Positions 28,759-64,000 of a stretch of DNA of 64,000 nucleotides are shown here, one piece after another. The position numbers were made by a program, and so were the translations under genes. Each line of letters opens with the position of its first letter. Position 1 is the stretch's first letter. Under the pieces are notes generated by a model. That model was not told the DNA's origin. It did no database searches and was given only the letters and a program-made list of their open reading frames with translations. Origin of the DNA: Allacma fusca (Eukaryota > Arthropoda > Collembola > Symphypleona > Sminthuridae); the NCBI GenBank assembly GCA_947179485.1, contig OX359246.1:55159632-55223631 (forward strand), written 5' to 3'.

Positions 28759-28764
28759 TTTATT
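28759..28764 (-). terminator. Polyadenylation signal of the second UGT gene
   Basis: AATAAA on the minus strand, about 83 bp after the stop codon. Confidence 0.6.
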
Positions 28765-28846
28765 CGCACAAAAACTATTCAACACGTTCATGATTATACC
28801 AGATAAAAATTAAAAGCATATTACTGGAGCACGTGCAGCTTCAAGA

Positions 28847-32073: not shown

Positions 32074-33206
32074 TGTTGCATACTTGTTGTACGCGCCCAG
32101 TCCGGATTACGCGGAGTCTAACCTAAACTAATATTATTAGAACCTAAAATAAATGGATGAATTATAGTGCAAATAAATGCTCTGGAAAGGATAATAAACA
32201 TGATTATTTTGCCCAACTTGCTTTATTTACTTGTAATTGTAGGTTGAAAAATATTATTATTAAATGTCCTTAATACTCGGTCTATATTAAGTTCTTTAAC
32301 CTATAATTGTATTTTCTTAGCTAATTTGTGTTCTGTGTGTAGTACACACTATCAACCTGACAATGTGACCCTTCTGTAAATAAGTATGACGACTTATAAA
32401 CAGGAATTAAATGTATCCTAATCTTAAATTATCTAGCTTAATTCGATTCTTAAAACTATAAAAGCCTATAGGCAAACCAGCATTATGCATGGCTGCACAA
32501 TAGGGATCTTAACCTAAGCTTTCGATACCCAAACCGGCATAGTAACCAGGTGGGATCTAAGTAAAAACTAAGATGCTTTTTACAGAGCGTCAACCATATT
32601 TATACTAAATTCTGCAATAAGTATTTGCATTACATTATATGCTCCGTAGAGACTTTCGCAATATTAGACAATGGAATGTGCTCCGTGGAGTCTTTAGCAT
32701 ACAAAAGAATATTTTAGAATATTCTTTTTGTCCTTGAATTATTCTACATCATATCATTCATACAATATATACATATCGGGCCTTGTGACTGCGACTCAGT
32801 GTTCATGCACGAGGCTTAACCTATTTTTCACAAGAGTTGAAAAGAATCAAAAAAGGTCTATATTTAACACATTATATACATGCTTCACCCCTGCACTTCA
32901 TTCACTCTCCTCATCCGGTCTCCGGGTGTGCTTAGCAAAGTCACACACACAAGAGAGAGCGAGGATGGAAGCTCATAGCAGAGGGGAACAAGCGTCCTTT
33001 TCCTCTCTTTACATGATCTTACGGGAGCTGCTGGGATAAAGAAAATGAGACATTCCAAGGTCTATTTCTTATCCAGTTAAAGGCCATGCACCGTATAAAT
33101 AACCTACAGTACACAATGTACACAAGTACTTACGTACTTACATTTCATTCATAATGTTACAGTTACTTATAGTTAACTTATTTTTAATTATGATACATAC
33201 GTAACA
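32074..33206 (-). repeat. 3' LTR, complete (1133 bp)
   Basis: It begins TGTTGCATACTTG and ends CATACGTAACA in plus-strand reading, so the inverted TG/CA ends are present. The left border is the exact point where similarity to the right LTR starts. The right border is set by the adjoining polypurine tract and the TGTTGC/GTAACA inverted tips. A plus-strand TATAAAAG near 32457 would face antisense to the element. Confidence 0.88.
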
Positions 33207-33221
33207 TTCCTCTTCTCCCTT
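33207..33221 (-). other. Polypurine tract
   Basis: The minus strand reads AAGGGAGAAGAGGAA directly beside the 3' LTR. This is the expected position for priming plus-strand DNA synthesis. Confidence 0.75.
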
Positions 33222-33596
33222 GTTATGTCCTCATAACATTTCCTTGGTAATGAATGAATGTGTCTAGGTATTTCTTTACAATCGTTTACACTTGTCGTAG
33301 CACTGGGTACAATAAAAGCGCTGTTGGGGTATTGTCAAATGGAATGGTAGGGTTGATTTGACAATTGTACTGTTGTGGTACGTGCACTAGGTCGTTTCTT
33401 CCGTAAGATCTCTTAGAGTTAACATATGTTCTTAAAACTATTAATTTCCTTATAATTATACAAGTAATAATATACATATAGGTATTAGGTATATGCCGTA
33501 CGTATGTTCTTGTAATATATAATATGTTTTAAACAATGACAAATCTTATTACTTTTAAGTTTATATGGCTGCTCTTTCACAATTATTCTCTTTTAC

Positions 33597-34043
33597 TCAC
33601 TTTGGTTGGTCTGTGTGAGCTTCTATCATAATGACTGTCTCATCCTTCCCTTTCCTATTTATCTCTTTTATCTCAGCACGTTGTTCTCTACAAAATCTGG
33701 TAATCTTGCAACAAACAAAATCACAACAGATAATATTCCTTGCTCTATTGGCGGAACAGAAATTATTAATAATACGTCTTAAAATGATTATGGTGACAAT
33801 AGTCACAACCGTCACCTTAAGCAGCCATAGGATTTGTATCACTCGTTCTTTCCCCTCTCTCCTCCTAAGACGCTCGATTTCTAATTCTTCTTGCGTCCAG
33901 CCAGAGAAGTAATTACGAAAACCTCCGGTGTATTTATCCCACCATTCTTCTAAATTGACTTTTGTCTCCGCATTAAAAATGCATTGGTTGGGTACCATGA
34001 GATTCGTAAAGACAATAATTATGATTAAAGGAAAATTTTTCAT
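33597..34043 (-). CDS. Small membrane protein of the retroelement (signal peptide, one TM, Cys-rich tail)
   Basis: This 148-residue protein was not recognised. The N-terminus MKNFPLIIIIVFTNLMVPNQC is a strong signal peptide. A luminal part of about 50 residues follows, rich in Trp, Gly and Glu, with a TGGFRNYFSGW-type aromatic stretch. The membrane helix (about residues 72-92) is rich in Val, Ile and Leu. Right after it is a cysteine cluster, IICCDFVCCKITRFC, preceded and followed by basic residues. Such juxtamembrane cysteines are often acylated, by inference. It is the last ORF before the polypurine tract. The length and open frame inside a young element argue that it is maintained. It could act at membranes, for example in budding or cell-to-cell transfer, but there is no direct evidence. 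Confidence 0.7.
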   Translation of the reverse strand: MKNFPLIIIIVFTNLMVPNQCIFNAETKVNLEEWWDKYTGGFRNYFSGWTQEELEIERLRRREGKERVIQILWLLKVTVVTIVTIIILRRIINNFCSANRARNIICCDFVCCKITRFCREQRAEIKEINRKGKDETVIMIEAHTDQPK

Positions 34044-34335
34044 TTTAGCGCTGTTAATTTGGAACAGAGTGAAATCGGGTACCTATGTACGCGTATACCT
34101 GCTGCCGCCTAATGGGCTGAGTGACAAGGTCTTATTTTTGCCTTGGGCTAATGTCACGCTAAATTTGCTTATTTCTTTAATGAAAAGAAAAATAGTTTTG
34201 TCAAGAACTAAGAACTGAGTTTCAAAGAGATTTCTAGTAGGAGAAAGATGTTTATCAGAAGTGCTTACAATCTTCGCAACTTCCTGATGTTACAACTTTT
34301 TACAATTCTCTTATGAGACAATTCTACTTGAGCCT

Positions 34336-34848
34336 TTATACATGTGTGTTAGCAACTCTAGGTTGATTATCTAACCTCTTGATGACTTTTATCCCTGTTA
34401 ACTGATTCACTTGTGATTGTAAAGCAGACTTTACGTCCGTATTTGTATGGACGGGCTTGGGGGAATCACGGAGATCGATGAGGGGTTCAGTGTCATTATG
34501 GGTCATTGATGGTGTTTGCCTTTTCTTCATAAAATAATAAGCAAGTCCCATTCCTAACACTGTGACTCCACTTCCTCCAGCGGCCATTTTTGCAATATCC
34601 TGTTGTTCCAAGGGTTTTCCACTTATGATTTTATCTATCGTAGCCCAAGTGGAGGCCAAAAAGACTGTAGGTACGAACTTTCCTACCAGGAAGGTTCCGA
34701 ATCGACTGAAAATACCCGGTTTCTTGTAGACGGTTCCTCCTACAACGTACGAGACCTTGGATCCGGTTTTCCAAAATTTCCAGCTGCCTTCAGTTCCACT
34801 TGCGAAGAGAAATATGACCAAAATAACTGCTACTTTAGACATGATCAC
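34336..34848 (-). CDS. Small membrane protein of the retroelement (signal peptide, TM, polar tail)
   Basis: This 170-residue protein was not recognised. It starts with MIMSKVAVILVIFLFASG, a signal peptide with two possible ATGs (the first and third codons). Next comes a lumen-side segment of about 65 residues with Trp, Phe and Gly (WKFWKTGSK, FSRFGTFLVGKFVP). A glycine-rich hydrophobic helix (AAGGSGVTVLGMGLAYYFM, about residues 88-106) ends at the basic stop KKRQ. The C-terminal 60 residues are polar. The general layout is that of the neighbour at 33597-34043, 292 bp downstream, but no sequence similarity is obvious. Both lie in the 3' part of the element where envelope-type genes often sit. 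Confidence 0.7.
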   Translation of the reverse strand: MIMSKVAVILVIFLFASGTEGSWKFWKTGSKVSYVVGGTVYKKPGIFSRFGTFLVGKFVPTVFLASTWATIDKIISGKPLEQQDIAKMAAGGSGVTVLGMGLAYYFMKKRQTPSMTHNDTEPLIDLRDSPKPVHTNTDVKSALQSQVNQLTGIKVIKRLDNQPRVANTHV

Positions 34849-38908: not shown

Positions 38909-39568
38909 CTATTGATGCCCAAACATGGCATTCTCTGTCGCCTCTTCCCTGTGTAGGATCGGGAAGGCAATATCTTTCTTAAAAGATATTATAATTCGTC
39001 GGGCTTCGCTGATTCGATCTTCAGTTAAAGCTTTCTTCCATTTTTTTCTGACTTCTGCCAACATTCTCCGTGTAGGCTCGTCATTTCTCAATATCAGTAA
39101 GGAAGCTATTGTCCCATCCTCATATACTGGGTCTAATTCGTAATGAGGATCCAATAGATTCTCCTCCAGGTCTCTCATCACTATCTGTATTCCAGAAATA
39201 TGTGTGAGACTATGAAGTAATTTTATGAAATCATAACTGTTGTCACCGAAATCAATGACAAATGACTGCCAGAGATCGGTGGCTAACTGATTTATGAGCC
39301 GAGTCACATGGCATAATCGCGTGACTCCTGGGTTCCCTGTATCAGGTTTAAATCCCTGTGGAATGAAATTCCTATCTTTATAAACGGATCTTAGTCGCTC
39401 ATATATTCGTACAAATTGCATGCGGTCAAGATCCTTGGCAATGCTCAATTCGTTAGTGGCAGCATCGGATCGTGTCATAGGTGGCATGATATATTCTCGT
39501 ACTCCACTGTCATAACGAATATACAACCTTTCAGGTTCGTATCCTGAGCAAGCTTTTGATAAGGCCAT
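38909..39568 (-). CDS. Retroelement protein of unknown function, 219 residues
   Basis: Not recognised. The ATG at 39568 lies inside the end of the 1707-residue ORF, overlapping it by 38 nt in the +1 frame. Translation could therefore be coupled, or come from a spliced message. The protein is soluble in appearance, with no signal peptide or membrane helix. It contains FVIDFGDNSYDF, a charged acidic patch (DLEENLLDPHYELDPVYEDG) and a basic helix-rich C-terminus (RKKWKKALTEDRISEARR). It is followed by the 4-kb stretch without ORFs. Conservation in related copies would show whether it is an independent protein. Confidence 0.65.
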   Translation of the reverse strand: MALSKACSGYEPERLYIRYDSGVREYIMPPMTRSDAATNELSIAKDLDRMQFVRIYERLRSVYKDRNFIPQGFKPDTGNPGVTRLCHVTRLINQLATDLWQSFVIDFGDNSYDFIKLLHSLTHISGIQIVMRDLEENLLDPHYELDPVYEDGTIASLLILRNDEPTRRMLAEVRKKWKKALTEDRISEARRIIISFKKDIAFPILHREEATENAMFGHQ

Positions 39569-42500
39569 AATTTTCTGCTCGATATATTGTAGCCTTTTTT
39601 ACTGTGTTAGTATCAGCAACATCATTCCTTTCTTCCATGAGCCATGAGGGCCCTGGATGTCCTATTTTCTGCGCTAATTTGTGCCTTTGAATCTCCTGTA
39701 AGGCTTTATTTAGGCTAGTCCATTCTTTTGCTAGCTCTTGAAATTCTTTAAAAGGCAATAAATAAGTCGGAATGGCTGCTAGAGTAGCTAAGCATAGTTC
39801 GTTGATGGTCCTACGACGGTGTGCATTAGCTAGGTAGTAATCTCTTATCCACTTCTCTTGAGCTTCATAGGTTGGTTCATAGCCTATGGCTATCCACATT
39901 TGTATAGCTATTCGTCTGATTTCTCTACCTGTTAAACCATACAACATACCTGTGTGGCTTCTACAAGAGGTATCCTCAGGGATATCTCTCCACCTATGAT
40001 GGCGTTGTGTATTTTGTATTATGGCTAAAGTTTCCTCCCCTAGATTTCCTATTGGGAGATTCAGATTAGATGCTAACTCTTCTAGCTGCCTATCTAGCAA
40101 CGGAACTCGAATTCTTTCCATTGCATGGATAGTGGCTATGTCCCTTTCCTTATTATCTATTAGGGACAGAAGGTGTGGCTCATTGGTGTAATTGTGGATA
40201 AGGAATCTACGGTACCTGATTTGTTCTTCGTTATCCTTTCTAACCTCAGGTGTTTTTATTCTAATATAGGCATGTTTTTGAGCGTCATGATTATTCCTAG
40301 AGGGTTGCATCAACAGATTTCTCATTCCTCTTTCTATTTCTGCTAAGGTTTCTCTCCTGATTTTCCTAATGGGAGATTTCTTTCTAGAAGAGGATGGTTT
40401 GGTGGAGTTTAACTTCTCCTCCAACTGTTTGTACATGTGATATAAAATCATGTATTGTTCCTCTTCTTCAGACAATTCATTGTTCCCTGATGGTTCGAAT
40501 ATCGTATGGGGATATTGTCTGAATCTGAAATAATCACTACTTAAGTTTGCCCTACATTCTTGACATTTATAACTTGACCTGGGATTTCTTAATGATAGCT
40601 CACTTGTTCTTCCGTGAGTATCCCTGTATCTAGACCAACTAATGGTTTCCTCCATTTCTGGAGTTCCTCCTCTTAGGTCTAAGTTCATGCTGAATGCGTT
40701 AGCTGGATTCTCTGGGTTGATATAAATCATGGCCTCGAAGACAAGAGCGTCTTCTAAGGTTTCTAAGGGATCTATATCAGGTAGATTGTATTCCGCATTT
40801 ATCATTAGAATTTTAGCGGTTGAAGGGAATCCATTTCTTATGAATGAAAATCCATTCCTAACTTCTGGAATGTTATGCATAGGATGATGTTTTGGTCCGT
40901 CCCCCATGTCCCAGTTCCAGTTAGAAACTGTTACTTTCTTTTTAGGAAAATCTTTTGATGTGCCGGGGGTATTATTCCGGAACTCGTTAGTATTTTTTAT
41001 CACATCATCCGGTTTATTTAAATATTTAAATATTTCCTTGGTTATGGTGGGCAAGCTAGGTGGTAAACCTGCACCCCAAATGTTTGTGTGACTGGTTGTA
41101 GGCATTTCTTTTGCGATTGTAAGTAAAAGATCTGGTCTAACTGTATTTGCTATAGGGAGATCTGAGCTGCCTGTGTTTACCATAGGCGTTTCAGGTTCCT
41201 TCACCTCCTCAGCCAACTCTATTTCTTCCTCTTGTAGTACATTTTCCACTACTTCCTCATTTGCCACAACCTCCGTTGTGTGTGAGTGAGGGTTACTCTC
41301 CACGGGTGTATCTCCCGTGTATACTATTCCTAAGTGTCTCAGGATATTTAGGATATGCCATAGAAGAAGTTGTAAAAATCCTCTGTGAGTTGATCCCGTA
41401 CTTGTATATAAGCCGGTAGTATCTAGTTCATATATGAACATTTTACTCTTTTTGCACAAGGATGTATCCTCTATCGGTTTTTTCCAAATACCTTCTGGAC
41501 CCAGGAAGGCCTCCAATTCTCTCTCTAAGTTCTTCCTCTTCTTCAGAGGGTCATTGTCCTCAATGACAACATCATCGTTAAATTGGTGGCCTTCCTCACA
41601 GTGGCCTGTGAGTCTGGTGTGCCAGTCTTGGACGGCTACGTCCTCAGCTACACATCCAGTAAACACGCGTGGGATAGAAATTACCACTGTGAGATTTACT
41701 GTAGGAAAGTGTATAGCGTTGGTGAGGAAGACTAAGTCTCCCCTCTGGAATTGAGAGTCTCTAGGAATTATGAAGTCATTTTCACCTTCGGTCAAAACCT
41801 CAGGTTCAGAGATAGTAAAATAATGCATAGCCGTGAGTTCTTCACGGAAAAGCATTATTCGTCTCTGTCTGACTTCAGCGTCATGGTTCCCCACGACTTT
41901 TCTGTTAATATCATAAATCAAATGCTCCATTCCTTCATACATCCAGTATCTTAATGGACGTCGGGATTTAGCAATGTTAACCGCAAAGTGATTTATGTAA
42001 GTTTGTAGAGTTTTATGCTCTGATGAATTTAGGACGTGCTCGGAAATCATGATAATAACGTGAGGGAGTATTTCCCATTCTTCATGTAGAACTAAATAGT
42101 TCCACTGTTTCGCTATTACATTGATTTCCGTATTATTGATTTCTTTCTGCCCGATGGTAAATAGTTGGCGGGTATTCGCCTGGGCAGTTTGGCTGAAGGT
42201 ATGACTATACCACACAGGGTGGTTGTCATGTCCTTGTGCTATTTCAAATTTCCTAGTTGAAGTTGGTTGTGAGTGACCAGCTGAGGTCGTCCAAAGGCAT
42301 GTCCAAGCGTTTATTAATAACGTGGTAAAAATATTGGACATACTGCACCATCGCTGGCGCATAATAGACCAACTAAGTTCGTATATGTTTGAGCATATGG
42401 CTGCTTCGGATTTATATCCGAACCATGGAGGATGGATAATGACATCCCGAAATTCATACACTCCTCCAGCTATCGCGAGACCTGTGATCATTTTCCCGTT

Positions 42501-44654: not shown

Positions 44655-44895
44655 TGCCTCGACCAACAAAGGCAATGATATTCAATATTCGGAGTCTCTT
44701 AGGTTTTAGAATTTGTCTAAGGACTATTGTAGTCGGGGAAATGATTTTAATAATGCAGTATTTACCGTCAAAGGTTACCCTATTCTGTCTTAGTTGATAT
44801 TTACCTCGTCTATAAATGTTCAGAAATTCTCCTACTTGTATTTTATCATGCTGTGAACAATGAAGAATGCATGGAGCTATCCTTATTTTATACAT
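44647..44895 (-). CDS. 82-residue ORF with SH3/GPY-like appearance
   Basis: A small ORF between integrase and the 1707-residue ORF. Its middle part (VGEFLNIYRRGKY...FDGKYCIIKIISPTTIVL, about residues 21-60) resembles the SH3-like GPY/F module at the C-terminus of gypsy-type integrases. There the pattern is a GD-x-V strand, then a (G)PYKI-type strand, then ISPT-x-x strands. Its TAA stop overlaps the ATG of the next ORF (ATGAGTAA), which suggests coupled translation. A true integrase GPY-like segment already exists in the integrase ORF, so this would be a second, separate module. It is small, and the similarity is by eye only. Confidence 0.5.
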   Translation of the reverse strand: MYKIRIAPCILHCSQHDKIQVGEFLNIYRRGKYQLRQNRVTFDGKYCIIKIISPTTIVLRQILKPKRLRILNIIAFVGRGNE

Positions 44896-45010
44896 GAACC
44901 TGTCTCTTTTCTAACTCATAAGAAATTTTCCGTAATTTGTTACTTAGCTTTGATGGTGTGTAGCTGTGTGGGAATTCCCAGTGGGAATTCTTCCTCTTCT
45001 CTGAATGTTA

Positions 45011-50755: not shown

Positions 50756-53700
50756 CCGTTTCCCGATTGTGATTTACTGGGATGGGGACTATCGTCTCTC
50801 CTACTTTCGGGACACTGGTTTTTCCTATGCCCGAAATTTTTACAGTGATAGCATACTGGAACTAGAGCATCCTCCGGTTGCTCGACTAAAGGAGCCTGTT
50901 CAGTTCGACCTCTAGGAGGAACAAACCTTGGTTTCCAGCCTGGAGTAAAAGGGGCTGGTGATTGAGAAGAATTTCGTCCATCGCTTCCCTGGCGAGAATC
51001 TCTCTTCCCTTCCCACGAGCTATTTCTATTTCCCTTGTACTCCTCTCCTCGAGATGACATTCCTTCTGAGCTATATTTGCCATCTCTATCATCAGAACTA
51101 TTCCCGGAATACTGATTCCCGGAATTATTCTTCCGAAAATTGTTTCCTCCTTTATCCGATGATCCGGATTCGTTGCCTTTTCTCCAGTTATCCTGGCTAT
51201 TTCGTCTTTCCTTCCAATTATTACCTTGTCCTCGATAATCTTTTCCCTGCTCAGGTCTCGCGTAATATTCTTTGTCACGCTCCTGATTATCCCTCTCTCT
51301 ACGGCGACCTTCTCTTTCCTCCCAACGGCTTTCTCTTTGATATTTCCGTCGGTCAAAATAAGGAGATGGAGACCGATTGCTATTAGAGTCTCTACTTCTC
51401 TGCGAGGGTTCCCAGTCAGAAGAGCTATTGCGACTCTGACTACCTGAAGTTTTGTTGGGATTTCGTGAAAAATCTCTCGATTTATGCTCCACTGGTTTAC
51501 TAGTCTTTGGCACTACTGATAGGTTTTGTTCTAACAGGTTGTTTAAGGCAGCTACCTGAACTTGTGTAGTTTCCTTTGACTGCCCTAACTCCTGTAGAGT
51601 TTTGTTTATATTTTTCAGGGTATCGCTGACATTTGGTTCCCCTACGTTATTAGGGTTGCCATATGTCATCCTATCGTCCCACCATCGTTGTACCACAGCT
51701 ATAAGGTGGTCCAAGTTTCTGAACCGCCTTCCAGCTATAGCTGCTAGTACTTCAGGTGCGAGTCCTAATTTTATCAATCTGATTTTTTCAGGGTCCAACA
51801 TTTGTGGATTCACCTTATTCATCAGTACGATCTTTGCATCCAGATAAGTCATGGGATTTTCGTTAGGGGTCATTTTCTTTTGCTCCATAACAGTCCTTAG
51901 TCTTTCTGGATTTATTTGATATCTTGCAATAAATGCAGCTCTGAACATATCCCACGTTATATCATGGTCGAACCCTTCAATTAGTCCAATTTGGTTTATC
52001 CAAGTGGATATCCAAGACTTGAAAGGTTCTTTTAGTACATGCATGGTATAACGTATTTTTTCCAATAAAGATCTATTTTGGAATCTTAAAAGCTGAATTT
52101 CGACCTTTTCCAAAATATCTGTTGGGTCATCAATTCCAATTTGGAATGGAATTGTTCCATACATTAACGCAGCTCCATTCATCATGTCTAGATCGGGATT
52201 GAGATCAAACTCGTCTTCGTCCCAGAAATCAAATTGGTTATCCTCGTAAGGAGGTGGCTGATCGTCCTCACTTTGTGAATCCGAATTTTGATTATGATTG
52301 GCCGGAATGCGGGGCGGATTACGCCTTCTCCAATTATTTCTTCTGTTAAAGGGCGGGTTAAATGGTGGATTGTACCCGTCTGAACTATTATTTTCGTCCG
52401 AACTTGATGATGGTGCGTCAGGATCTTCAGGAGGTGCGCCGGCTCGAACTCTAGGTAGTTGGCGAGGCGGTGACCTTCTGCGTTGATTGTTGTTGGGATT
52501 TCTGAGCCTTAGGACTGGTCCTTCGAGAAGTATCTCGTTCAAGAGATTTTCAACTTCTGGAGCTCTTCTTCCTTGATGTTGGTTTATATTAGGAAAAAGT
52601 CTGTCATAAGGTGGTGGGTTTATAGAATCATATACCCAATGTTGGGGTGGTCTGGGGATATTATTGTTCAGAGATACGCCTCTATTTTCATTACTAATCG
52701 GTCGAATTGGTCTGGGGATATTATTATTTATACGTATCCCTCCATCATCATGGCAATTATTGCAATGTGCATGGAGATTCCTAGCATTATTTCTTTCCAC
52801 TAGGCTCTCCCTGCTTCTTCCCAGAAAGTTTCTAAAAAATCTAGAAGCTCGGTCATTTAGATTATCTTGGGGGGAGTGTGGAATGTTATTATTTCGCTGG
52901 CTTGGGTTTCGAGGGTTATTTTGCCCGTTAGAATCGGCACCTCTTCTGTTGACAGGGATCCTTGGGGATCGTTGGGCTGGACCGGGTGGAATCCTAGCCT
53001 CATCACTGTCCACTGAATCATCATCCGAATCTTGGGGTTTATTTGTTACAATGTCGGCCTCTCTTGGTCCCACGTAATCTCGAGTCAAAAACTCAATTTC
53101 TGCGGGATTAAAATCTCCTAGTTCTAATTGTGTGAGAGGATATCGTACTCCTCTTTCGTCCCATAGGTAATCAATGCCTAATATTGGACGGTTATTTCTC
53201 TGCCGATTTTCACGTGCTTGATCAGCAGCATAATATGAAAATCTTACCATTACTCCCGAAGGGTATTGGTTTATGTAGCCTTGCTCATTGACAAATGCAT
53301 AAAAATATGTATGCTGTCTGTCTAAATATCTATCATCTATCGCTAATCTGAATCTTTCCAATCTATTCTCAGAATCTTCTCCGTCTGAATCGCCGGGTTG
53401 AGCTTCACCGTGTCTAATACGGGTGATGAGTGCTTCACCATTATCTCCACGGCTCAGATATCTTTGTAACTGGGCTCTGGTTATAGTGAGAGTAATGAAG
53501 CATGGTACATCTGGTGCTCGAGTCGTAACTTGTCTTGTGGCTAAGTTAAGATATAGAGGTACATTCTCATTTTCCCTCCGGACCCTTCGTGTCCCTCCTG
53601 GCCGATGAGTATATGTCCTACGTGCCATTCGACCAGCTGGGCGATTTTCTTGTTCACTATCTGAACTATCTGAAGTGTATCTACGTGTTATAATTCTACC

Positions 53701-56700
53701 TTCTTCCTCGGAATCTTCCTCAGATGTATGCAAATTCCAAATTCTAATCTGGGCTTGTCTTGTTAAAGCTCCTAAGGTCCTAGAGTCTACATACCTTCTA
53801 ACTAATTTATTTCGACCTGATGGTCTATAATTAATGATTTCATCAGTCCTAGGGTGCATAAAGATTATAAATCTTCCATCCCTGCGTCTTCTAAAATAGT
53901 TAGAACTCATCCTTAATTCCTGCATCCTTTGACGTCGCTCATTTAGCCTTACTTGCAGATGTTCTTGTTGTCGTTGTGCAAGTACATCCTCATTAATTAA
54001 TCTCTCATTGGTGATGCGTAATTCTTCCCGTTGTTGCGGGGTTACCATTATTCTATCATACTGCCTTCCATCGGTGGGGCGAGTAGAATATGAGTGTCCT
54101 TCCGCATCATACCATACGGGTATCATTTCAGGTTGCCGTGATGGTCCTGCTACTGGTTCTATGTTTGCAGAGTTGTTCTGGCTTCTTAAGGCACGGAATG
54201 TTGGTGTTGGTGGGATTTGAGCCGATAAGTTTCGTCGTGGAGTTGGAATAGGTTGAGTTAGTTGATTATGAATATCTGGTGAATCTGCATTTTCAACTGT
54301 ACCAGCAATTTGGGTGGGTCTTGAAAAAGAAGTTTCGTCCCTACTTTCCCTAATTGATGGAGTATTTGGTTGAATAAAAATATTAGAGGCCGGTGGAATT
54401 GGCATATGATTATATCTTTCTCGTACTTGTAATGGAATATCATTATTCCAAATAATGGGTAAGGTACCCGCGACTTGGCCTTGTCCGTCATATTGGAATG
54501 GTCTCCTACCTATTTGTACCGATCCTTCGGGAACACGTACCAAAGGATTATGTTCTCCTCCAGGTACGTCTATGATGCCTGTTAGTGGAGTATTATATAA
54601 TACAGAATATCTTGGTCTAACTGGTATCATATGAACTACATTGTTGATGCTTACTAAAGGTAGCGGAGTTCTATCTTCTCGAGCTATTCTTCGTAATACA
54701 TCCCTTGCCATAATTCGGACAAGCCTACCGCCTGGAATCCTAGTGTACCAATCTGGACTAGAAAACCCAGGATGGATAGTACCATCCCGCATTTGGTATA
54801 CCATAATTTCATGATTCCCCAAATTTTGATAATGCCTACCATGATTAGGTGACAATATGGTAGGTATGGGACAAGTGGATTCATATGCTTGATGAGCATC
54901 CGTCTCTCTTTCCCGGAATGCCTCCCATTCTTCTTGTGGAATTCGTCTTTCAGGGCCTACAAAGGCATGTACCGGACGACGTCCATACAGTCTACCGCCT
55001 GGTGACTGATAAGCAGTTACTATTCCCCTTGATGGGTTAGATATGGATTCATTAGGCGTGGGATGATTTTGTTCCACATTTTCCCCACTAACGTTAGAGA
55101 TATCTTCTTCTTCTGGACTCGCATTTTGACTTGCTGAAGATTGTTCGGCTTCGGCTGAGTCAGAATGAGAGGTAGCACTTTGATTATTGTCAGTGCTATC
55201 TCCATTACCTCTATATTGTTCTCTAGGGATACGGAATCGACCTTCATTCCCAATACGATGGTGTGCTGGAGTTTCACCCCATACAAGTCTATACTTGAAT
55301 GTGCCTTCTTCGGGTGTTTTATCTTTCTTTTGGTTAGACAAGCCTCCTTGTACATAAAATTCTTCTCCGTTAGATCTTTCATATACCATTAAATATGCTG
55401 GTCTTGGTGACAGAGGTCCTAGGGCTGGACGTAGCACAACTTCAGGTGGTGGAGTTGGAACACGGGAGACATCTCCTTCAGCTGTTCGTCGTAGGAATTC
55501 CGCAACAGTTACATTTACTAAACGTACATCAATTCGTTGTTCAGGTGGTATGTAATGAACTAATTCTCCATCTTCTCGTTGATATACGGTTATAATCTGA
55601 TGTCTTAATTGGTAGTGTCTACCTGCCCTCGGAGAACGAATCGTTTCTATATGGGTAGTAGGATGGTAACCTCTACCTATCCTATCTCCAAAATCATGTT
55701 CTTGTCCGAATTGGTCTACTCTATTTCGTATAACTTCTCCTTCTGGATGGTGAACAGGTCTATGCCCATATATCTTTCCTCCTGGAGATGGATATCCCCT
55801 AATAATTTGACTAGGTGATAAAGGTGGGAAATCAGTTCCATCTGGAATAATTATTCCAATGGGAGTTGTAACTGGGGTGGATTGTTCTCTAGGTCTATTA
55901 GTCGAACAAGAGGCTACGGGAGTATTATTTCCCTGATTGATATTTGTTCCATCATTTCCTGGTCTCATACCATTTCTTGGAGGAGTCACCTGAGTGCTTA
56001 AAGTTCTTCGTACAAGCCTAGCACTGTTAGTAATATTTGCCATGGTTTCAGCCACATCTTCTTGAGTAAATTGACTACCCATTGTACGCATGGTAGGTAT
56101 TATAGGAGATGTGCCTATGGTATAGGTATTATGCATAGGAGATGAGCCTACATTAGCCCTGTCCCTTGTAATAGGTGATGTACCAAAATGAGAAAAGGTT
56201 GGAGGTCTGTTAAGTGGAGAAGTTGAAACATTTTCCCTAGTATGAGTAGCAGTCTGAGCATTACGCATAGCCTGTGGTCTAAATGCATTTCCTATAGGTG
56301 AAGTGTGTATGTCCCTATATCGGTATTGCTCAGCGCTTACATGAGGTGATGTACCTATATCATGTACTTGACGAATTTCCCCCTGCGTAATCTGAGAAGC
56401 TCGAAAATCCTGTGTTTGGGACAAGTTTTGAGCTCGGGTGGTTGAGGGTGAGCTTTCAGACACTTGTCTTGGAGTTGTATTAGTTCCCATTTCTACAGTG
56501 GTAGAGGTTATAGGACTTGTGCCTATATGCACGGTATTGCTTCTTCCCACAGGTTGTTCATAACTTTCTTGTTCCTCTGCAAAGAGTCTTCTCCCTCTTG
56601 GTGTAGCACCAACAGGCCGTACAAGTACATAGTCCTCATTGAGTTCTACATGAACGGTAATCCGCTGTCTTGGAGGTATAGGATTGTTATCCCTTCGACG

Positions 56701-58056
56701 TGCATCTATAGCTACGGCTGCAGGGATTCTTAGGATTTGTATGTTATCAAGGAATGGCGAATGATCTCTGATGAACGATTGCCTGCCTAATTCCTCCGTA
56801 GTGCGTTGTATCGTGAGTACACGTCTCTCCAATAGAGTTGTAAGCGTGTATATTTGTATGGGGTGCTCTTGGAGTTGAGCTGCTAAGTTAGTAGCTATTT
56901 CCCATAATGTTTGACTCACAGTCTCGGAATATTCTGTGCTTTGCTGTCGCATATTTATGCGGTCTAGTATTCTAAAAAAGAATACATCCCAGCTAATATA
57001 TACACGTATCTGTGCCGTTGCGCGTAAATGGCGTAGGGTAAATATGTTCCCTGTTTCTCGGATAAGTTCGATGAAACCTCTACTCTGATTTACTCCAATC
57101 TGTTCAGCCAATGTCATTCCTACCTGATTTCTATTTAAATCTCCAAAGTCTATTCCCATGCGAATAAGCATATGGATAGTTGAATGAATAAGTTTTCCAT
57201 TTGAGAGATTCAAATACGACATGGGTGTTCTTGGAATCCTATATTCCATATCTGTGGCTGGCGTAGATGGGGTCAGAGCATTATGCCGGGTCGTAGATAG
57301 ATTTATCCGCGATACCTCATTCAGATCTATATTAGCCCTTGCGGAGGGTGATGCTGAAGGTGTAGAAGTATGAGTAGGCTGAGTTGGTAATATTGCCTTA
57401 GATTCATCTCCTGTGGTAAACACATGTTTCTTAGTTACAGTGCCTTCCTTTACCTCCTTCTGCACTTCCTTGCTAGTGCTTGGTCTATTTAGGTTACTAT
57501 TTTCTGGATCGTGATTTGTCTCAGATTCCTTGGTAGATTCATTAACAATAGTTTTTGATTGTTCCTGCTGATCACTAATTTCTTTTGCAAGAGTGATAGT
57601 TTGTTGCACTAGGTTTATGACCTCGGGGTCTACTTCTGGTCCGAAAACCACAATATCCCCGGCAACATTTTCAATCGCAATTTCATCTCTAACCGAGGCT
57701 GCACTTTCGTAAGCAGTGGAGTCAAGGTCATTGGAAATAGAGGTAGTATCTACCGTATGAAAAGAACTCTCGCCCTCAGCCTCCCCTTCCGTCAGTGAAG
57801 GCAGAGTCTCTTCGACTTCCTGTAATCCTTGAGTAGCTGTGCTCGGGTTATCTACCGGGCTAACTCTTTCCTCTGGTGATGATATATCTGTGGATGGGTT
57901 GCTAGGAATAATTGAGAAGCTAGATGAAGACCCAGATTGCTCCCGTAATCGAAGTCTATTAGCCCTCTCTATCTCTCTTACATCTAAGTGTGCAGGTGGT
58001 GGACCACTAGAGCGAAGATGCCTAGGCTCAGGTGGTGGTGGTGGTTTCTTCGGCAT
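50731..58056 (-). CDS. Giant Gag ORF, 2441 residues
   Basis: The C-terminal third is a recognisable Gag. A capsid-like retrotransposon gag domain (about residues 1970-2120) holds WISTWINQIG, FRAAFIARYQ and MTYLDAKIVL. An Arg/Ser/Asp/Gly-rich linker (about 2160-2380) leads to one CCHC zinc knuckle, CYHCKNFGHRKNQC (about 2400). The first 1900 residues are unusual for Gag. They have a polar Ser/Thr/Glu-rich start, about seven GTSP-type repeats (about 505-690), and repeated modules that begin SPGGxxYGxRPVH (about 748 and 1012). A looser version follows near 1320 and possibly one near 1490. An Asn/Pro/Arg-rich stretch precedes the capsid domain. Typical Ty3/gypsy Gag is 300-600 residues. The ATG at 58056 is the first after the leader. 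The protein would build the particle; the role of the extension is unknown. Confidence 0.9.
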   Translation of the reverse strand: MPKKPPPPPEPRHLRSSGPPPAHLDVREIERANRLRLREQSGSSSSFSIIPSNPSTDISSPEERVSPVDNPSTATQGLQEVEETLPSLTEGEAEGESSFHTVDTTSISNDLDSTAYESAASVRDEIAIENVAGDIVVFGPEVDPEVINLVQQTITLAKEISDQQEQSKTIVNESTKESETNHDPENSNLNRPSTSKEVQKEVKEGTVTKKHVFTTGDESKAILPTQPTHTSTPSASPSARANIDLNEVSRINLSTTRHNALTPSTPATDMEYRIPRTPMSYLNLSNGKLIHSTIHMLIRMGIDFGDLNRNQVGMTLAEQIGVNQSRGFIELIRETGNIFTLRHLRATAQIRVYISWDVFFFRILDRINMRQQSTEYSETVSQTLWEIATNLAAQLQEHPIQIYTLTTLLERRVLTIQRTTEELGRQSFIRDHSPFLDNIQILRIPAAVAIDARRRDNNPIPPRQRITVHVELNEDYVLVRPVGATPRGRRLFAEEQESYEQPVGRSNTVHIGTSPITSTTVEMGTNTTPRQVSESSPSTTRAQNLSQTQDFRASQITQGEIRQVHDIGTSPHVSAEQYRYRDIHTSPIGNAFRPQAMRNAQTATHTRENVSTSPLNRPPTFSHFGTSPITRDRANVGSSPMHNTYTIGTSPIIPTMRTMGSQFTQEDVAETMANITNSARLVRRTLSTQVTPPRNGMRPGNDGTNINQGNNTPVASCSTNRPREQSTPVTTPIGIIIPDGTDFPPLSPSQIIRGYPSPGGKIYGHRPVHHPEGEVIRNRVDQFGQEHDFGDRIGRGYHPTTHIETIRSPRAGRHYQLRHQIITVYQREDGELVHYIPPEQRIDVRLVNVTVAEFLRRTAEGDVSRVPTPPPEVVLRPALGPLSPRPAYLMVYERSNGEEFYVQGGLSNQKKDKTPEEGTFKYRLVWGETPAHHRIGNEGRFRIPREQYRGNGDSTDNNQSATSHSDSAEAEQSSASQNASPEEEDISNVSGENVEQNHPTPNESISNPSRGIVTAYQSPGGRLYGRRPVHAFVGPERRIPQEEWEAFRERETDAHQAYESTCPIPTILSPNHGRHYQNLGNHEIMVYQMRDGTIHPGFSSPDWYTRIPGGRLVRIMARDVLRRIAREDRTPLPLVSINNVVHMIPVRPRYSVLYNTPLTGIIDVPGGEHNPLVRVPEGSVQIGRRPFQYDGQGQVAGTLPIIWNNDIPLQVRERYNHMPIPPASNIFIQPNTPSIRESRDETSFSRPTQIAGTVENADSPDIHNQLTQPIPTPRRNLSAQIPPTPTFRALRSQNNSANIEPVAGPSRQPEMIPVWYDAEGHSYSTRPTDGRQYDRIMVTPQQREELRITNERLINEDVLAQRQQEHLQVRLNERRQRMQELRMSSNYFRRRRDGRFIIFMHPRTDEIINYRPSGRNKLVRRYVDSRTLGALTRQAQIRIWNLHTSEEDSEEEGRIITRRYTSDSSDSEQENRPAGRMARRTYTHRPGGTRRVRRENENVPLYLNLATRQVTTRAPDVPCFITLTITRAQLQRYLSRGDNGEALITRIRHGEAQPGDSDGEDSENRLERFRLAIDDRYLDRQHTYFYAFVNEQGYINQYPSGVMVRFSYYAADQARENRQRNNRPILGIDYLWDERGVRYPLTQLELGDFNPAEIEFLTRDYVGPREADIVTNKPQDSDDDSVDSDEARIPPGPAQRSPRIPVNRRGADSNGQNNPRNPSQRNNNIPHSPQDNLNDRASRFFRNFLGRSRESLVERNNARNLHAHCNNCHDDGGIRINNNIPRPIRPISNENRGVSLNNNIPRPPQHWVYDSINPPPYDRLFPNINQHQGRRAPEVENLLNEILLEGPVLRLRNPNNNQRRRSPPRQLPRVRAGAPPEDPDAPSSSSDENNSSDGYNPPFNPPFNRRNNWRRRNPPRIPANHNQNSDSQSEDDQPPPYEDNQFDFWDEDEFDLNPDLDMMNGAALMYGTIPFQIGIDDPTDILEKVEIQLLRFQNRSLLEKIRYTMHVLKEPFKSWISTWINQIGLIEGFDHDITWDMFRAAFIARYQINPERLRTVMEQKKMTPNENPMTYLDAKIVLMNKVNPQMLDPEKIRLIKLGLAPEVLAAIAGRRFRNLDHLIAVVQRWWDDRMTYGNPNNVGEPNVSDTLKNINKTLQELGQSKETTQVQVAALNNLLEQNLSVVPKTSKPVEHKSRDFSRNPNKTSGSQSRNSSSDWEPSQRSRDSNSNRSPSPYFDRRKYQRESRWEEREGRRRERDNQERDKEYYARPEQGKDYRGQGNNWKERRNSQDNWRKGNESGSSDKGGNNFRKNNSGNQYSGNSSDDRDGKYSSEGMSSRGEEYKGNRNSSWEGKRDSRQGSDGRNSSQSPAPFTPGWKPRFVPPRGRTEQAPLVEQPEDALVPVCYHCKNFGHRKNQCPESRRDDSPHPSKSQSGNGWRGKHPQ

Positions 58057-61000
58057 GATGATATGTATGAGCTATAAGCTTATAAGCAAATACAATATTC
58101 ACACAAATTCGTATTAGATGTTAACAAGAGAAGAACAATTTTCAAACTGAGCACCGGTTAGTCTCTGATCAGTCCTTATATTAATACAATTGGGTTAGAA
58201 CAATTTGCTATTCGACGTCTGCCTCCTCACTCCTTACTGTAAACAGACATTCGTAGGGTATGCGACAGAGAGTAGATGTGTTTAAAGTTGCGTTACCGGA
58301 GGTCGGGTATCGGTCACAATGACTTTCCCTCTATATTCACCGGCTCTCTGGGTTAAATAAACCACACGCATACGTCTGCAACAGAGGTTTCAAGAGTGGG
58401 TGGTACCCTTAGCAATTGTCAGTTAGAATCATACTAACTTTCAGAGTGACCATTAACAAGTTGGATTTCATAAATAAATTTGAAGACATGTAACGAATTT
58501 GGATGTTATTATTTACATTTAGCACAGCATAAGCATAAATTTAAAAATAAAAATGATTGCATATGCAGGTTGCGGCTAAATGTTGATTGTATGCAATGGT
58601 ATCCCATTGGGAAGTCCATCTGTGTCGAAGTCTCTTATCTAGTAAGGTACCCGGATCTCCTGTGACCTGTACCTCTGAGAAAATTCTTCATTCTTCTCAG
58701 TGGGATTCACTCCAAATACGCGACTATCCGACTAGAACTGTTGATATTCTGTACCTCTTGGAAGTATAGACCCACATCCGGCTATCATTGCTTCAGAGAT
58801 GAGCCTCTACGTCCAAAAGGGAAACATCCTTCCTCTGACTTCGTCACCTAATTCTGTGTTTATCTCTGCACAAGACTACAGTCTGTACTTCCCCAGAGTT
58901 ATACTCATTCTTGGAGAAGGAACTACAGCCGCTGTACATTGACTAGCAATGCCGTATATCTAAAGCGAAAAACCCTATGACTAACCGTAATTGTTACACA
59001 AGAGCTCCTATCACAAGTCAGTGAGTTAGAGTCCACAATCCACACTAACCCTCTTCCCTGCAATAAGAATTCTTGAGAAGTTAAATCATATACTTAATTT
59101 ATGAAGACTTAATAGCTACTTCCCTTAACTCACATACTCTGCTTTGCCAAGAGAAGGTTCCTAACTACTTAGCATCCTATATGCATACATTGACATAAAT
59201 TTAGAATTCACACGCCAATTGTCCCTTATAATTAGACTACCTGTCAATGCATACATACCTTCCCTGAAGGTCACTGTTTTTGCCTGCTTAAAATCCGTTC
59301 CTGAATTATAAGCTTCGTTAGGTGGTCTCTGTACGTCCATGGATAGACACCAAAAATGGCTCTGTATAATATCCAAGTCTACACTCAATTAGACATTAGA
59401 AGCTTGACTAGTGGTGCTGTATATCCATAGACAGAAGTCCTTCTAAACTCTGTATACCCTGAGTAGAAGAAGTCCATGTCCTGTATACTTTACAAGTAGA
59501 AGCAACCTCTGCTCTGTATACCCGTAAGTAGAGACAGGCCTCTCTGTATACTCACAGTAGAAGTTTAGTATATATAACGCCAATTAATGACATTCTGGTA
59601 GTAACAGCAATGCCAATTCCTATAATCACGTCCTAAATGAAGAAGGCTCCGTGATCCTAAATTAACCGCCAATTAGTAACACCCCCTGCTCTGGCACTTG
59701 TACTCCAAGTCCGTAGGCAAGCAGGCGTACCTCGGAATCCCATTCCGGAAATAAATTTTGAATCCTTCCAGGATGCCTCCTGAAATTCTGAAGATGAAAA
59801 ATGAATAATTCAGAGCTTCCTTCAACCAAAGACAGTTGAGTTCACCTCCCTTATATTTATCCTAAAATAAAATATTTTTATTTTATTTCAGGCCTATATA
59901 CTTTACGACAAGCTATAGGATTTGCTAGCCTTTGGGTTTCGGGTTCCCCTTAGGACTAAGTAATTTGCGTATCCAAACTCCCGTATGTTTGCTCACGCAA
60001 ACTGCTGTCGGTAACTCCTTTCTGGGGAGTACCCTGTATAATTATAGCTGCTCATCCATACTTACTACTAGTATGAACTCCTAACTGTTGTGAAGTCTTG
60101 CCCTGTATCACTACTCTGTACGTAGGAATCCCATGATCTGTACTACGGAAACAGTGAGAGGCAATAACCTTCACCGATATATTTATACTACGTCATTTTG
60201 CCTACTGGCACAGCTGCTTCTTGACTTTCCTAGTACAAGCGCTACGCCAGTGGAATCCAATTGGGTGATGCTTAGCCGTAACTGTGATATACTATGCCTG
60301 TGTATGAAGGGATTACTCCGTCCTCCTATGCACTCACGCTCCCACAGCACGATGTCTAAGATCTAATTTGGCCTTGCTTCCAGCTATTCCTGAGGAAGTC
60401 CTCCTTCCCTGAACGCTAGTAAGCCGGATTTTCCAATTCATCCAAGCTGAATCAGTATGATATGCTATACCTCATGGGAGTCCTGCGTCCACTTATACGC
60501 TCCCATATCTGACCATATGGACGTACCTATGGGTTCCCATAGACAGGTAACCGAAACAGATTAAAGAATTAGTATAGTATGCTAAAGGAACATACTAAAA
60601 GATTTAAAGTTTGTTTGCAAAGAACTAGAGTTCCCTGTATTATATGAAGTCTGTATAAGGAGAAGTACCTCCTACTCTGTTTCCTTAGAACCTCATATAA
60701 GATGAACTGACCTGTTTTTATCTTAACCTGTACAACCCTAGTTGGAGTTAAGCATAAAGAGTCCCTGGTGCCCTATATCCAGAATTTAATCTGTACCTAG
60801 GGAAAAGATACTCTCTTTCTGTTCCTAGGGAATTTAGTTCTGAAGATGCATGCTTTCTGTATTAATGTCAGCCTATATGGACGCCGCCAGATCTGCCATT
60901 AAGAAAAGCAAACACTCTGTGCTTCAGAAGAATCTCAATTCTCTATATGAAGGAAGTGATCTCAGGCTAGTCTGTATTTGCATGAAGGGTTGAGGAAGAA

Positions 61001-63241
61001 ATATTATGAGGGACCCTGTATTCCCATAACTGCCATCAAGGAGGCTTCCCTACGCCCTGTACTTGGTTGCAGCTAAAGGAAGATGTCATCCTGTATTCCA
61101 ATCCCTGTGCAGAAGATGTGCCTTGCACCCTGTATTCTGGAGCATTGGAAGAGACTTTCCTCAAAATATTCTGTTTTCCTTCCTTCCTAACCTAAGTGCT
61201 AGCCCATAGACAGGCTTGCACCTAAAAATGAAATAATTAGGCTTATAGATACTAGTCACCCTGTATGTGGATGGACTACATACTATTGTGAGGTGATTAA
61301 ATTTTGAAAAATTATCTAAGTAATAATTACCCTAACGGCATGTAATTATTTTAAAATTTGGAGAAGAGTAATTTTGACTCCCCTGTATATAGATACCGGG
61401 TACCATGGGTCATTAGGTCTTTTACTAGTAGTCCTAGTTGTCGGGTCAGGTCATACCTAGATCCTACTATAATATCGTAAGCATAATCTATGGTGCAGAT
61501 GTAAATGTTGGGTAGAACCCTATATGCACCTATCAAGTGTGTGTATGCCACTAACCCATTGACTCACATAAGTAGTCTTTGAGGATGACAGGTATTAACC
61601 CCTACCTGCCATATATCTAATTGCCATGTCTAGATATTGTGGCTTATACCATCTAACCTTGTAGTTGACTATGCAGTTAGAAGCATAGGTTGTCGGGACA
61701 TGATGAACCTCCTGTAGCTATAGCATACGTGTATATGTACACCCCAGTGGGTATGTGTAAGCATTCACGGCTTAGCTATGTTTACTTTACCACAGGCAGT
61801 GCCTATACGGTGGTTAAGTAGTCCCTATGGGACGTAATAATGGGTGGTTCCCACATTAATAAGTAATAAAGTGCATATGTGCAACCTAGTAGGTATGCAC
61901 ATAATGTAACGCAGAGCTCTCGATGTGTTCCACATATACTAGACCATATCTTTTAGGTATATGTGAATTCCCAGTGGGACGTCGTTATGGGATGAGCCTC
62001 GGTTAAGAGGAAGCTCGAGGTACATACGCCTCCGTAGAAGTTGTTCGTATGACCTTGGCCCTATAGTTGCTTTGCACCTCCAAAAAACTTTTTGATGGTC
62101 CCTGTGGGACATCTCTATGGGATGGTCCCGTTCCAATTTGCTCCTTAACGACGAAAATGTAAAAGCATAGTGCCCATGTATGTGAAATTTTAAATAAGAT
62201 TTCATAAAATTTCTAATTTGTATGAGTGGGTATACGTATGCATCCTACTCTGGCCCATAGACAGGCATAAAGACTTATATTTGTAAGTAAGTAATTGAAA
62301 AGTGAGTCTCACCATTGGTGTTCTTTCAGTATTCGTCACAAAGGACTAAATAATAAGTTTTAATGGTTCGAATGCACCAGACCTGGTTGGCTGGCCATTA
62401 AAATTTATAGACGGATCGTCTCTTGATGAGAAAATAGATGAAATTTTATATTTTTAAAATATAGTTTAATTTCCAAGTGTGTGTAGGATTGAGCAGCCAA
62501 TGGCCGTAATCTCATATCCCTTCACTTGTACTTTTTTTCCTTTCTGACTCTGCGGTCTACAGCGTCCGAGTCAATGGCACTTTAAAAGTTTTATTTATTT
62601 CACTATTTTTATTTGCTCTTTAATTTTAACCCTTTAAATCCTATTATTTTACTGATATACTTGATATCGTAGTATTACAGTAGGCCTAGCTCCCAAAAAT
62701 TTACTCAAAATATTTATAATGTATATATACGTTGCCCTAGAGTGAAAAGATCTATTAAAAATGGTTCAAAATTTCATTTACTTACCTTGTATATAGACTC
62801 TTCCTTCTCTGGGATGAAAAATTTTGATTTGGAAAATTTAAATTTTTATTCCTGCCCTCAGGAACAACTGAAATTTTGAAATCCGAGTCCCAATGGGACT
62901 GGCTAATGATTACATTCAGTGTATGAATGCAACCTCCTATGAGAGTAACTGATTGTGAGCAAAAAATAAGTTTTTCTCATGGAAAAATATTATTTCCCCG
63001 CAGTGCGGGCCTCTCCAGGCGAACTTTTGCCCATAATCCGTACCATTTCTCAGTGAGAAAATGTGCGACTTGAAATATTTTTCTTAAATATTTGCCCAGT
63101 GGGCTAAGTCTGAACATCTGGAGTGAAAAGAACTTTCTTGAGAGTTGTCCAGTGGACTTTTCTGATCTTGAAGAGAAAATTCTCAGGTTCTGAATTATTT
63201 TGAAAAAAATAATTCCTGGCCTAACACACCAGACCAGTGGT
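58057..63241 (-). other. 5.2-kb leader of the giant retroelement
   Basis: The leader lies between the primer-binding site and the Gag ATG and has no long ORF. It is rich in YCTGTAY motifs (plus-strand reading), with over 25 copies between about 59330 and 61390, often next to AGTAGAAG or GAAGTCC. A second motif group, CCCAGTGGG/TCCCAGTGGGAC and variants, appears at about 61820-63150, and CCATAGACAGG recurs at about 59428, 60530, 61205 and 62252. These could be RNA structure, packaging or regulatory repeats. Confidence 0.7.
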
Positions 63242-63259
63242 TACTGGCAGAAACATCCA
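63242..63259 (-). other. Primer-binding site
   Basis: The minus strand reads TGGATGTTTCTGCCAGTA directly after the 5' LTR. The TGG start is expected for pairing with the CCA end of a tRNA. I cannot assign the tRNA. Confidence 0.65.
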
Positions 63260-64000
63260 TGTTGCATACTTGTTGTACGCGCCCAGTCCGGATTACGCGG
63301 AGTCTAACCTAAACTAATATTATTAGAACCTGAAATAAATGGATGAATTATAGTGCAAATAAATGCTCTGGAAAGGATAATAAACATGATTATTTTGCCC
63401 AACTTGCTTTATTTACTTGTAATTGTAGGTTGAAAAATATTATTATTAAATGTCCTTAATACTCGGTCTATATTAAGTTCTTTAACCTATAATTGTATTT
63501 TCTTAGCTAATTTGTGTTCTGTGTGTAGTACACACTATCAACCTGACAATGTGACCCTTCTGTAAATAAGTATGACGACTTATAAACAGGAATTAAATGT
63601 ATCCTAATCTTAAATTATCTAGCTTAATTCGATTCTTAAAACTATAAAAGCCTATAGGCAAACCAGCATTATGCATGGCTGCACAATAGGGATCTTAACC
63701 TAAGCTTTCGATACCCAAACCGGCATAGTAACCAGGTGGGATCTAAGTAAAAACTAAGATGCTTTTTACAGAGCGTCAACCATATTTATACTAAATTCTG
63801 CAATAAGTATTTGCATTACATTATATGCTCCGTAGAGACTTTCGCAATATTAGACAATGGAATGTGCTCCGTGGAGTCTTTAGCATACAAAAGAATATTT
63901 TAGAATATTCTTTTTGTCCTTGAATTATTCTACATCATATCATTCATACAATATATACATATCGGGCCTTGTGACTGCGACTCAGTGTTCATGCACGAGG
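63260..64000 (-). repeat. 5' LTR, cut by the window end
   Basis: Matches 32074-32814 with a single substitution (A to G near 63332). About 390 bp remain outside the window if it is as long as the 3' LTR. Confidence 0.92.

Follow-up and report, generated by a model that had tools for sequence, protein, structure and literature searches.

The window analyzed here is a stretch of 64,000 nucleotides from the collembolan Allacma fusca (C8:55159632-55223631). From position 32074 onward it is occupied by a Ty3/gypsy-type element on the minus strand, which extends over 32074-64392 (32,319 bp), its 5' long terminal repeat (LTR) crossing the window end. When the full 5' LTR was read from the host genome, the two LTRs were found to be 1133 bp each, to carry TG..CA ends, and to differ at a single position (1/1133). 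Within the window, a comparison of 32074-33206 with 63260-64000 likewise gave one mismatch in the 741 bp that are visible. Because the open reading frames (ORFs) of at least 200 amino acids (aa) in the element all lie on the minus strand, 32074-33206 was identified as the 3' LTR. An original prediction, made from the sequence alone, had described LTRs 31.2 kb apart, a primer site and polypurine tract at the proper ends, a single set of protease (PR), reverse transcriptase (RT), RNase H (RH), and integrase (IN) motifs, and a recent insertion. These were borne out, the primer site as a putative one: the LTRs are 31,186 bp apart from start to start, TGG stands immediately inside the 5' LTR, a purine tract abuts the 3' LTR, each Pol domain occurs once, and the near-identical LTRs are accompanied by a CTTC target-site duplication. 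The element is a genuine single unit that was recently inserted.

In the direction of transcription, the element consists of a leader of 5,203 nt, Gag, PR-RT-RNase H, integrase, ORF4, ORF5, ORF6, and ORF7 (Table 1). The extra frames beyond Gag and Pol number four (ORF4-ORF7) and not six as first counted, and since ORF4 and ORF5 occupy one frame in relatives, the four frames amount to three genes. The 1707-residue ORF that had been singled out does exist; its length is the count from the first ATG of a 1714-aa frame that opens with TTG. By arithmetic from the coordinates, non-ORF DNA comes to ~10.3 kb, where ~9 kb had been estimated. Pfam placed RT, RNase H, and the integrase zinc-binding domain above its cut-offs, and protease and the integrase core just under them. 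The catalytic motifs of Pol are present, D-35-E among them, the PR-RT-RH-IN order is that of Metaviridae, and Ty3 Gag-Pol is the top PDB sequence match for both Pol parts. These two parts are split by a stop codon that is not present in the two relatives compared, which rules out natural readthrough from RNase H to integrase at that site. Since the Pol frame of the relatives runs from RNase H into integrase without a stop, Pol of the window copy is judged to be damaged. A second lesion, a frame break near ORF4 aa 1693, parts ORF4 from ORF5; in two other copies described below (copies 2 and 3) the final ORF4 stretch, to about residue 1694, is in the ORF5 frame. Judged by these comparisons, both Pol and ORF4/5 of the window copy are damaged despite its near-identical LTRs, which the original prediction had not recognized.

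Next, we searched the host genome (392.7 Mb in 91 contigs) with the LTR. The search gave 57 matches, and all three full-length pairs (at least 87% identity) were studied. Besides the window pair, there are two further LTR pairs of the same family (family 1; copies 2 and 3), 35.2 and 39.0 kb apart, with within-pair identities of 99.73% and 98.85% and duplications of ATTT and TTAC. Both copies hold all seven ORFs in the order of the window copy, both have frame breaks, and both contain nested insertions (~4.0 kb in the leader of copy 2; ~1.0 kb in the leader and ~6.8 kb within ORF4 of copy 3). Subtraction of these insertions leaves ~30.1 kb in each. Six pairs of short LTR fragments were found 29-37 kb apart, of which three were fetched and the other three were placed by protein matches alone. 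A second family comprises three copies of ~30.4, 32.7, and 32.6 kb, with interiors of 28.5, 30.8, and 30.7 kb (nested insertions not discounted), LTRs of ~950 bp that are 100, 100, and 99.3% identical, and duplications of CTAC, ATTG, and GGTA. Gag, Pol, ORF4, ORF6, and ORF7 are carried by all three at ~50-79% aa identity. In the C8 copy a deletion has removed the end of ORF4 and ORF5 (28.5-kb interior), and in the C10 copy Gag (2517 aa), Pol (1901 aa), and ORF4+5 (1847 aa) are single open frames. Thus, the support that the original prediction had asked for, multiple copies sharing one layout with their LTRs about 32 kb apart, was found in two family-1 pairs (their nested insertions included) and three family-2 copies. 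All six elements examined have TG..CA LTR ends and 4-bp target duplications; target duplications of 4-6 bp are usual in Metaviridae. After the family-1 nested insertions are discounted, the six interiors are ~30 kb, or 28.5 kb where deleted.

A third, distant family was recognized from ORF4/5-like and Pol similarity. It has a 2331-aa ORF collinear with ORF4/5 (profile E 5.8e-86). Immediately ahead of this ORF is an RNase H-integrase part of Pol that is ~49% identical, and it is followed by an ORF of 235 aa with signal-like and transmembrane (TM)-like segments, which matches the ORF6 profile weakly (E 0.64). The ORF4-like protein has hydrophobic segments at 789, 908, and 1278 and 10 R-x-[KR]-R sites, one of which (1122) is in the aligned part. 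Genome-wide, Gag was found at 13 or more loci, ORF4 at 16 or more (at least 19 with three distant ones), ORF6 at 11, and all three together at 10. Loci were grouped by hand from 36 gag, 37 ORF4, and 14 ORF6 matches; the candidates scored were the best 19 of 864 for gag, the best 27 of 575 for ORF4, and 14 of 14 for ORF6, and the first two counts are lower bounds.

At C1:2.70-3.00 Mb there are further related LTRs (71-75%); four of these, at 2.697-2.727 Mb, are spaced ~10.04 kb apart. The same region has partial Gag (aa 1-816) at 2.884 and 2.987 Mb. These matches appear to represent shortened derivatives of the giant element, part of them arranged in tandem. The claim of a giant unit, as opposed to copies without the extra regions, stands in that the layout is kept in other elements, and is qualified by these apparent derivatives, which were seen as search matches. 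At C9:26.41-26.45 Mb, two LTR fragments enclose pieces of Gag and ORF4 in both orientations, which suggests a mosaic or an inverted double element.

Table 1. Features of the element in the window, listed in the direction of transcription
Feature	Position	Strand	Description
5' LTR	63260..64000	-	741 bp in the window, further 392 bp outside; C8:55222891-55224023
Primer-binding site	63242..63259	-	TGG immediately inside the 5' LTR; putative tRNA match
Leader	58057..63259	-	Non-coding, 5,203 nt
Gag	50731..58056	-	2441 aa
Pol part 1	47414..50755	-	PR, RT, RNase H; 1113 aa; -1 frame relative to Gag, short overlap
Pol part 2	45011..47365	-	Integrase (HHCC, D-D-35-E, GPY/F); 784 aa; frame shared with part 1
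ORF4	39531..44675	-	1714 aa (TTG start); predicted membrane polyprotein
ORF5	38909..39568	-	219 aa; C-terminal part of the ORF4 gene in relatives
20-nt motif around GAGGATATGAGGG	36710-36729, 37214-37233, 37994-38013	-	Three copies in the 3' non-coding region
ORF6	34336..34842	-	168 aa; N-terminal signal-like segment and TM-like segment, then Lys/Arg (sequence reading)
ORF7	33597..34043	-	148 aa; N-terminal signal-like segment, TM-like segment, cysteine cluster (sequence reading)
Polypurine tract	33207..33221	-	15 nt, abuts the 3' LTR
3' LTR	32074..33206	-	1133 bp, TGTTAC...GCAACA; TATAAATA at LTR base 603, AATAAA at 980; C8:55191705-55192837
Target-site duplication CTTC	32070..32073	.	4 bp; partner adjoins the 5' LTR outside the window

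Of the ATG-initiated minus-strand frames in the 3' region, ORF6 and ORF7 are the longest two. Shuffling of this region gave a longest frame that reached 168 aa once in 2000 trials and a second-longest frame that reached 148 aa in none of 2000. Codon-usage scoring was poor at telling coding from non-coding sequence. The ratio of nonsynonymous to synonymous substitution rates (dN/dS) between the window copy and copy 3 was 0.28 for Gag, 0.16 for PR-RT-RH, 0.21 for IN, 0.13 for ORF4, 0.05 for ORF5, 0.13 for ORF6, and 0.14 for ORF7, and against copy 2 it was 0.05-0.35 for all but ORF7. Judged against copy 3, all extra ORFs are under purifying selection. Between families, dN/dS is unreliable or undefined, because synonymous sites are near saturation (proportion of synonymous differences, pS, 0.65-0.92). 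At the protein level, the RT-RH core is 96% identical between families, and ORF4, ORF6, and ORF7 are ~55-66% identical.

ORF4 has a strong internal signal-like hydrophobic segment at ~658-676 and further hydrophobic segments at 729, 981, ~1100-1118, and 1624. Three N-glycosylation sequons (847, 883, and 994) lie in the interval 676-1100, and all three are kept in family 2, as against none of six elsewhere in the protein; four of the six cysteines in the same interval are also kept. At 936-939 stands a furin-like site, R-Q-R-R; family 2 has either R-Q-R-R or K-Q-R-R there. ORF4 and ORF5 together (~1,850 aa) may thus be read as a surface-glycoprotein polyprotein, whose identity as an Env is only possible. 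Compared with an errantivirus-like env after pol, it is a membrane polyprotein with sequons and a furin-like site that matches no Env family.

The capsid region of Gag (~aa 2034-2184) was matched by phmmer to the Gag of other Ty3/gypsy database proteins, and a CCHC knuckle was located by its motif at aa 2402-2415, with a Pfam score under cut-off. Ahead of the capsid region lies an N-terminal extension of ~1,950 aa, in which a domain is duplicated (aa 740-923 and 1001-1179, 34% identity); third and fourth copies of this repeat were sought and none was found. Eight of the 10 S/T-S-P motifs in the window Gag fall in aa 513-653, and the family-2 Gag has 10 such motifs within its first 1051 residues. 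Protein searches gave no match at E 0.001 for Gag (6268 candidates) or ORF4 (6256 candidates), the candidates being limited to proteins that have short words in common with the query and a length 0.55-1.75 times its own, a filter that would miss split or distant relatives. No matches were obtained among viral contigs searched with ORF4, Gag, and Pol part 1, or among prokaryote contigs searched with Pol part 1.

The leader contains 90 ATGs in the window copy and 87 in the family-2 copy at C10. Its longest ORF has 88 aa, a length equalled in 321 of 2000 shuffles, and the leader therefore holds no ORF above chance. It is 92-93% identical to that of copy 3, as compared with 88% for the LTRs and mostly 75-82% for the 3' non-coding DNA, and with synonymous differences of 20-37%. 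Between families, the leaders are of similar length (5203 and 5270 nt) and 67% identical, with conservation over ~3.3 kb. The LTRs of the two families have only short patches of 68-77% in common (no blastn match at E 1e-20), and matches in the 3' region are limited to ORF6, ORF7, and a short repeated motif. This 20-nt motif (Table 1) also occurs in copies 2 and 3 and once in each of two family-2 copies; its hairpin potential is weak. Consensus folding gave mean z values of -3.28 for the leader, -2.70 for the leader antisense strand, -2.13 for pol, -0.68 for pol antisense, and -1.19 for Gag, and double-compensated pairs made up 105 of 659 (16%) in the leader, 41 of 503 in pol, and 41 of 292 (14%) in Gag. 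That the leader is a constrained region of RNA or DNA signals is well supported by these sequence comparisons.

A clue to the primer was found at C1:66.388 Mb, where a related LTR is followed at once by the complement of CCA and of a complete tRNA-Val(GAC), and then by ORF4 from about residue 516. Eukaryotic tRNA genes are not known to encode CCA, and the junction therefore looks like an aberrant cDNA of a mature primer tRNA. The primer of this lineage is thus likely of tRNA-Val type. For the window copy we can only infer its primer, because its site differs from the C1:66.388 Mb sequence. Self-priming in the style of Tf1 was considered and rejected, as the 60 nt that follow the LTR match the LTR itself over no more than 9 nt at a stretch.

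To place the element, an RT tree was built from 112 of the best 120 of 393 RT matches, 8 having been dropped for short coverage. In this tree, which has no named reference clades, the window RT and family 2 form a long isolated branch. Among the matches listed, the best-scoring named RT proteins come from a pseudoscorpion and a spider. In a 2019 review (PMC6431247), ~10 kb is given as the traditional limit of retroelements, whose size is thought to be bound by transcription, RT processivity, and packaging, and the planarian Burro elements are given an interior of up to 25 kb and a total of more than 30 kb. Burro resembles the present element in being >30 kb, LTR-bounded, and Ty3/gypsy-like, with an env-like region and accessory coding sequence (PMC6431247). 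It is described as having an ORF1 polyprotein of 4.9-5.1 thousand aa, with Gag at the N-terminus and env between Gag and PR, and MATH, BIR, ankyrin, and BCL2 motifs (PMC6431247), none of which is among the Pfam matches of the window element. Unlike Burro, the elements described here have interiors of ~28.5-30.8 kb, a capsid near the C-terminus of a Gag of 2.4-2.5 thousand aa, a separate Pol frame, a membrane polyprotein after IN, and two small signal-like/TM proteins. This comparison was made by published description. Ogre elements of plants have an extra ORF upstream of gag. They too are giant Ty3/gypsy elements with extra coding sequence, though LTRs of 1.9-6.5 kb account for much of their size and the interior, of 11-13 kb, has 1-2 extra ORFs, according to the same review (PMC6431247). 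Here, in contrast, LTRs are ~1 kb, the interior is ~30 kb, and the leader has no ORF above chance.

Small TM proteins encoded by Metaviridae are also described, in a preprint, as the FAST-like sORF2 of the MDG1 group (PMC11952523). In ORF6, as in sORF2 (PMC11952523), aromatic and basic residues come after a TM-like segment. However, sORF2 precedes gag and often bears an N-myristoylation motif and an ectodomain of ~30 residues (PMC11952523), whereas ORF6 and ORF7, which are located downstream, carry a hydrophobic segment at the N-terminus and start with MSK (ORF6) and MKN or MYI (ORF7), without the motif MGxxxS/T. LTR elements of bdelloid rotifers have extra ORFs after pol, some of them env-like or TM-bearing, but differ in size and gene set from the present ones, to judge from a description of their variable ORF3 (PMC5408684). 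None of the enzyme types named for the bdelloid ORF3 is represented by ORF4-7, since these have no Pfam family at cut-off. A literature search, in which few subscription journals were covered and sources were available in part, returned no larger interior and no element with the same gene set.

Outside the element, the window contains a satellite array of a 148-bp unit (48.7 copies, 13141-20350), and this unit recurs, inverted, in a short array nearby at 8141-8901. A minus-strand long interspersed nuclear element (LINE)-like element at 3076-7184 has a coiled-coil ORF, an endonuclease ORF, an RT ORF, and a further ORF overlapping its end. At 26245-30669, a direct duplication of 1.8 kb (78% identical) contains UDP-glycosyltransferase-like ORFs, of which one exceeds the Pfam cut-off and one falls short of it. 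Rfam reported nothing in the window at the gathering threshold; two miRNA-like matches in the element were far below it.

Taken as a whole, the locus is probably a young insertion of a giant Metaviridae element, from a lineage of ~30-33 kb elements with env-like genes. RNA polymerase II would transcribe an RNA of ~31 kb from the LTR. With 90 ATGs ahead of it, Gag is unlikely to be reached by plain scanning, and the leader is therefore proposed to carry signals for translation entry, splicing, or packaging. The particle would be formed by Gag and its very long N-terminal extension, and Pol would follow in the -1 frame. Reverse transcription would begin from the tRNA-Val-type primer, and integrase would yield the 4-bp duplications. 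ORF4+5 would be a membrane polyprotein with a glycosylated surface domain that may be cut by furin, while the products of ORF6 and ORF7 would be membrane proteins of small size. Acting together, these proteins would most likely carry particles from cell to cell, for example from soma to germ line, a role that may be likened to that of Env or FAST-like proteins of other elements. If the Pol and ORF4/5 lesions are not later than the insertion, the window copy would have been mobilized with help from other copies. Several observations weigh against this reading. Pfam and PDB sequence searches returned no relative of ORF4/ORF5, ORF6 and ORF7 have no Pfam family at cut-off, and reading of the sequence after the ORF4 furin-like site revealed no evident hydrophobic fusion peptide; the functions of ORF4-7 are thus predicted ones. 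Two structure models, one of them of ORF4, were useless (mean pLDDT 34.4 and 35.8). The dN/dS of ORF7 against copy 2 is 0.65, the structure signal of the leader is only moderately over the controls, with a compensated share close to that of Gag, and the window primer site resembles the tRNA-Val complement of C1:66.388 Mb by an imperfect match.

Other explanations were weighed against the same data. An ordinary 5-10 kb Ty3/gypsy element enlarged by nested elements, or an assembly join, would at first seem compatible with the nested insertions of copies 2 and 3, but is scarcely credible and is ruled out by the other copies: the gene order recurs in five other elements with 4-bp duplications (the C8 one without part of ORF4/5), and the extra ORFs are under purifying selection. 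In addition, no repeat at E 1e-5 was found to link interior and flanks outside the satellite arrays, and no second RT or transposase domain was present among the interior ORFs scanned. It is also very improbable that the extra ORFs are captured host genes carried as passive cargo. Giant retroelements can bear host-derived domains, as noted in the review (PMC6431247), yet here an identical gene order is shared by two families near synonymous saturation, with an ORF4/5 relative in the third, and the ORFs show purifying selection and no Pfam family at cut-off. Moreover, ORF4 matches accompany ORF6 at 11 of 11 loci, although no separate search for host copies was made and not every ORF4 locus was checked for belonging to an element.

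Conservation of ~3.3 kb of the leader between families, together with seven donor-like sites found by a simple pattern, could mean that the leader holds spliced exons or a hidden gene. This is improbable: codon periodicity was detected in 0 of 15 leader windows, as compared with 9 of 11 in the pol control, only 12 of 94 alignment gaps are multiples of three, and no ORF exceeds chance. More weight, though still as an unlikely alternative, may be given to a giant endogenous retrovirus proper, in which ORF4 would be a true Env fusion protein, ORF6 and ORF7 would be accessory, and the element itself would be infectious now or have been so recently. The signal-like segment, conserved sequons, basic cleavage-like site, and second hydrophobic segment of ORF4 would suit such a protein, and three hydrophobic segments, together with several R-x-[KR]-R sites, are found in the third family as well. 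Apart from the lack of an Env match in Pfam or PDB and of an evident fusion peptide, however, ORF4 has 657 residues ahead of the signal-like segment and ~600 after the second hydrophobic segment.

If the giant Metaviridae element is read in its broadest sense, we tentatively suggest, as a possibility short of an even chance, a lineage, not described before, of giant retroviruses or similar elements rich in genes, with at least three families in one genome. These would have unusual particles built of an oversized Gag, a structured 5.2-kb leader for the start of translation or for packaging, and, for movement between cells, a new surface polyprotein with two small membrane proteins unrelated to known Env. 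If this is true, the interior would be the longest reported from LTR to LTR, within the literature searched. Since two families keep an interior of ~30 kb, and two fetched copies have identical LTRs, a retroelement genome of 30 kb can be stable and active. A slow RT core beside faster membrane proteins is the pattern expected of conflict over cell entry, and both this pattern and a conserved non-coding leader kilobases long would be open to direct test.

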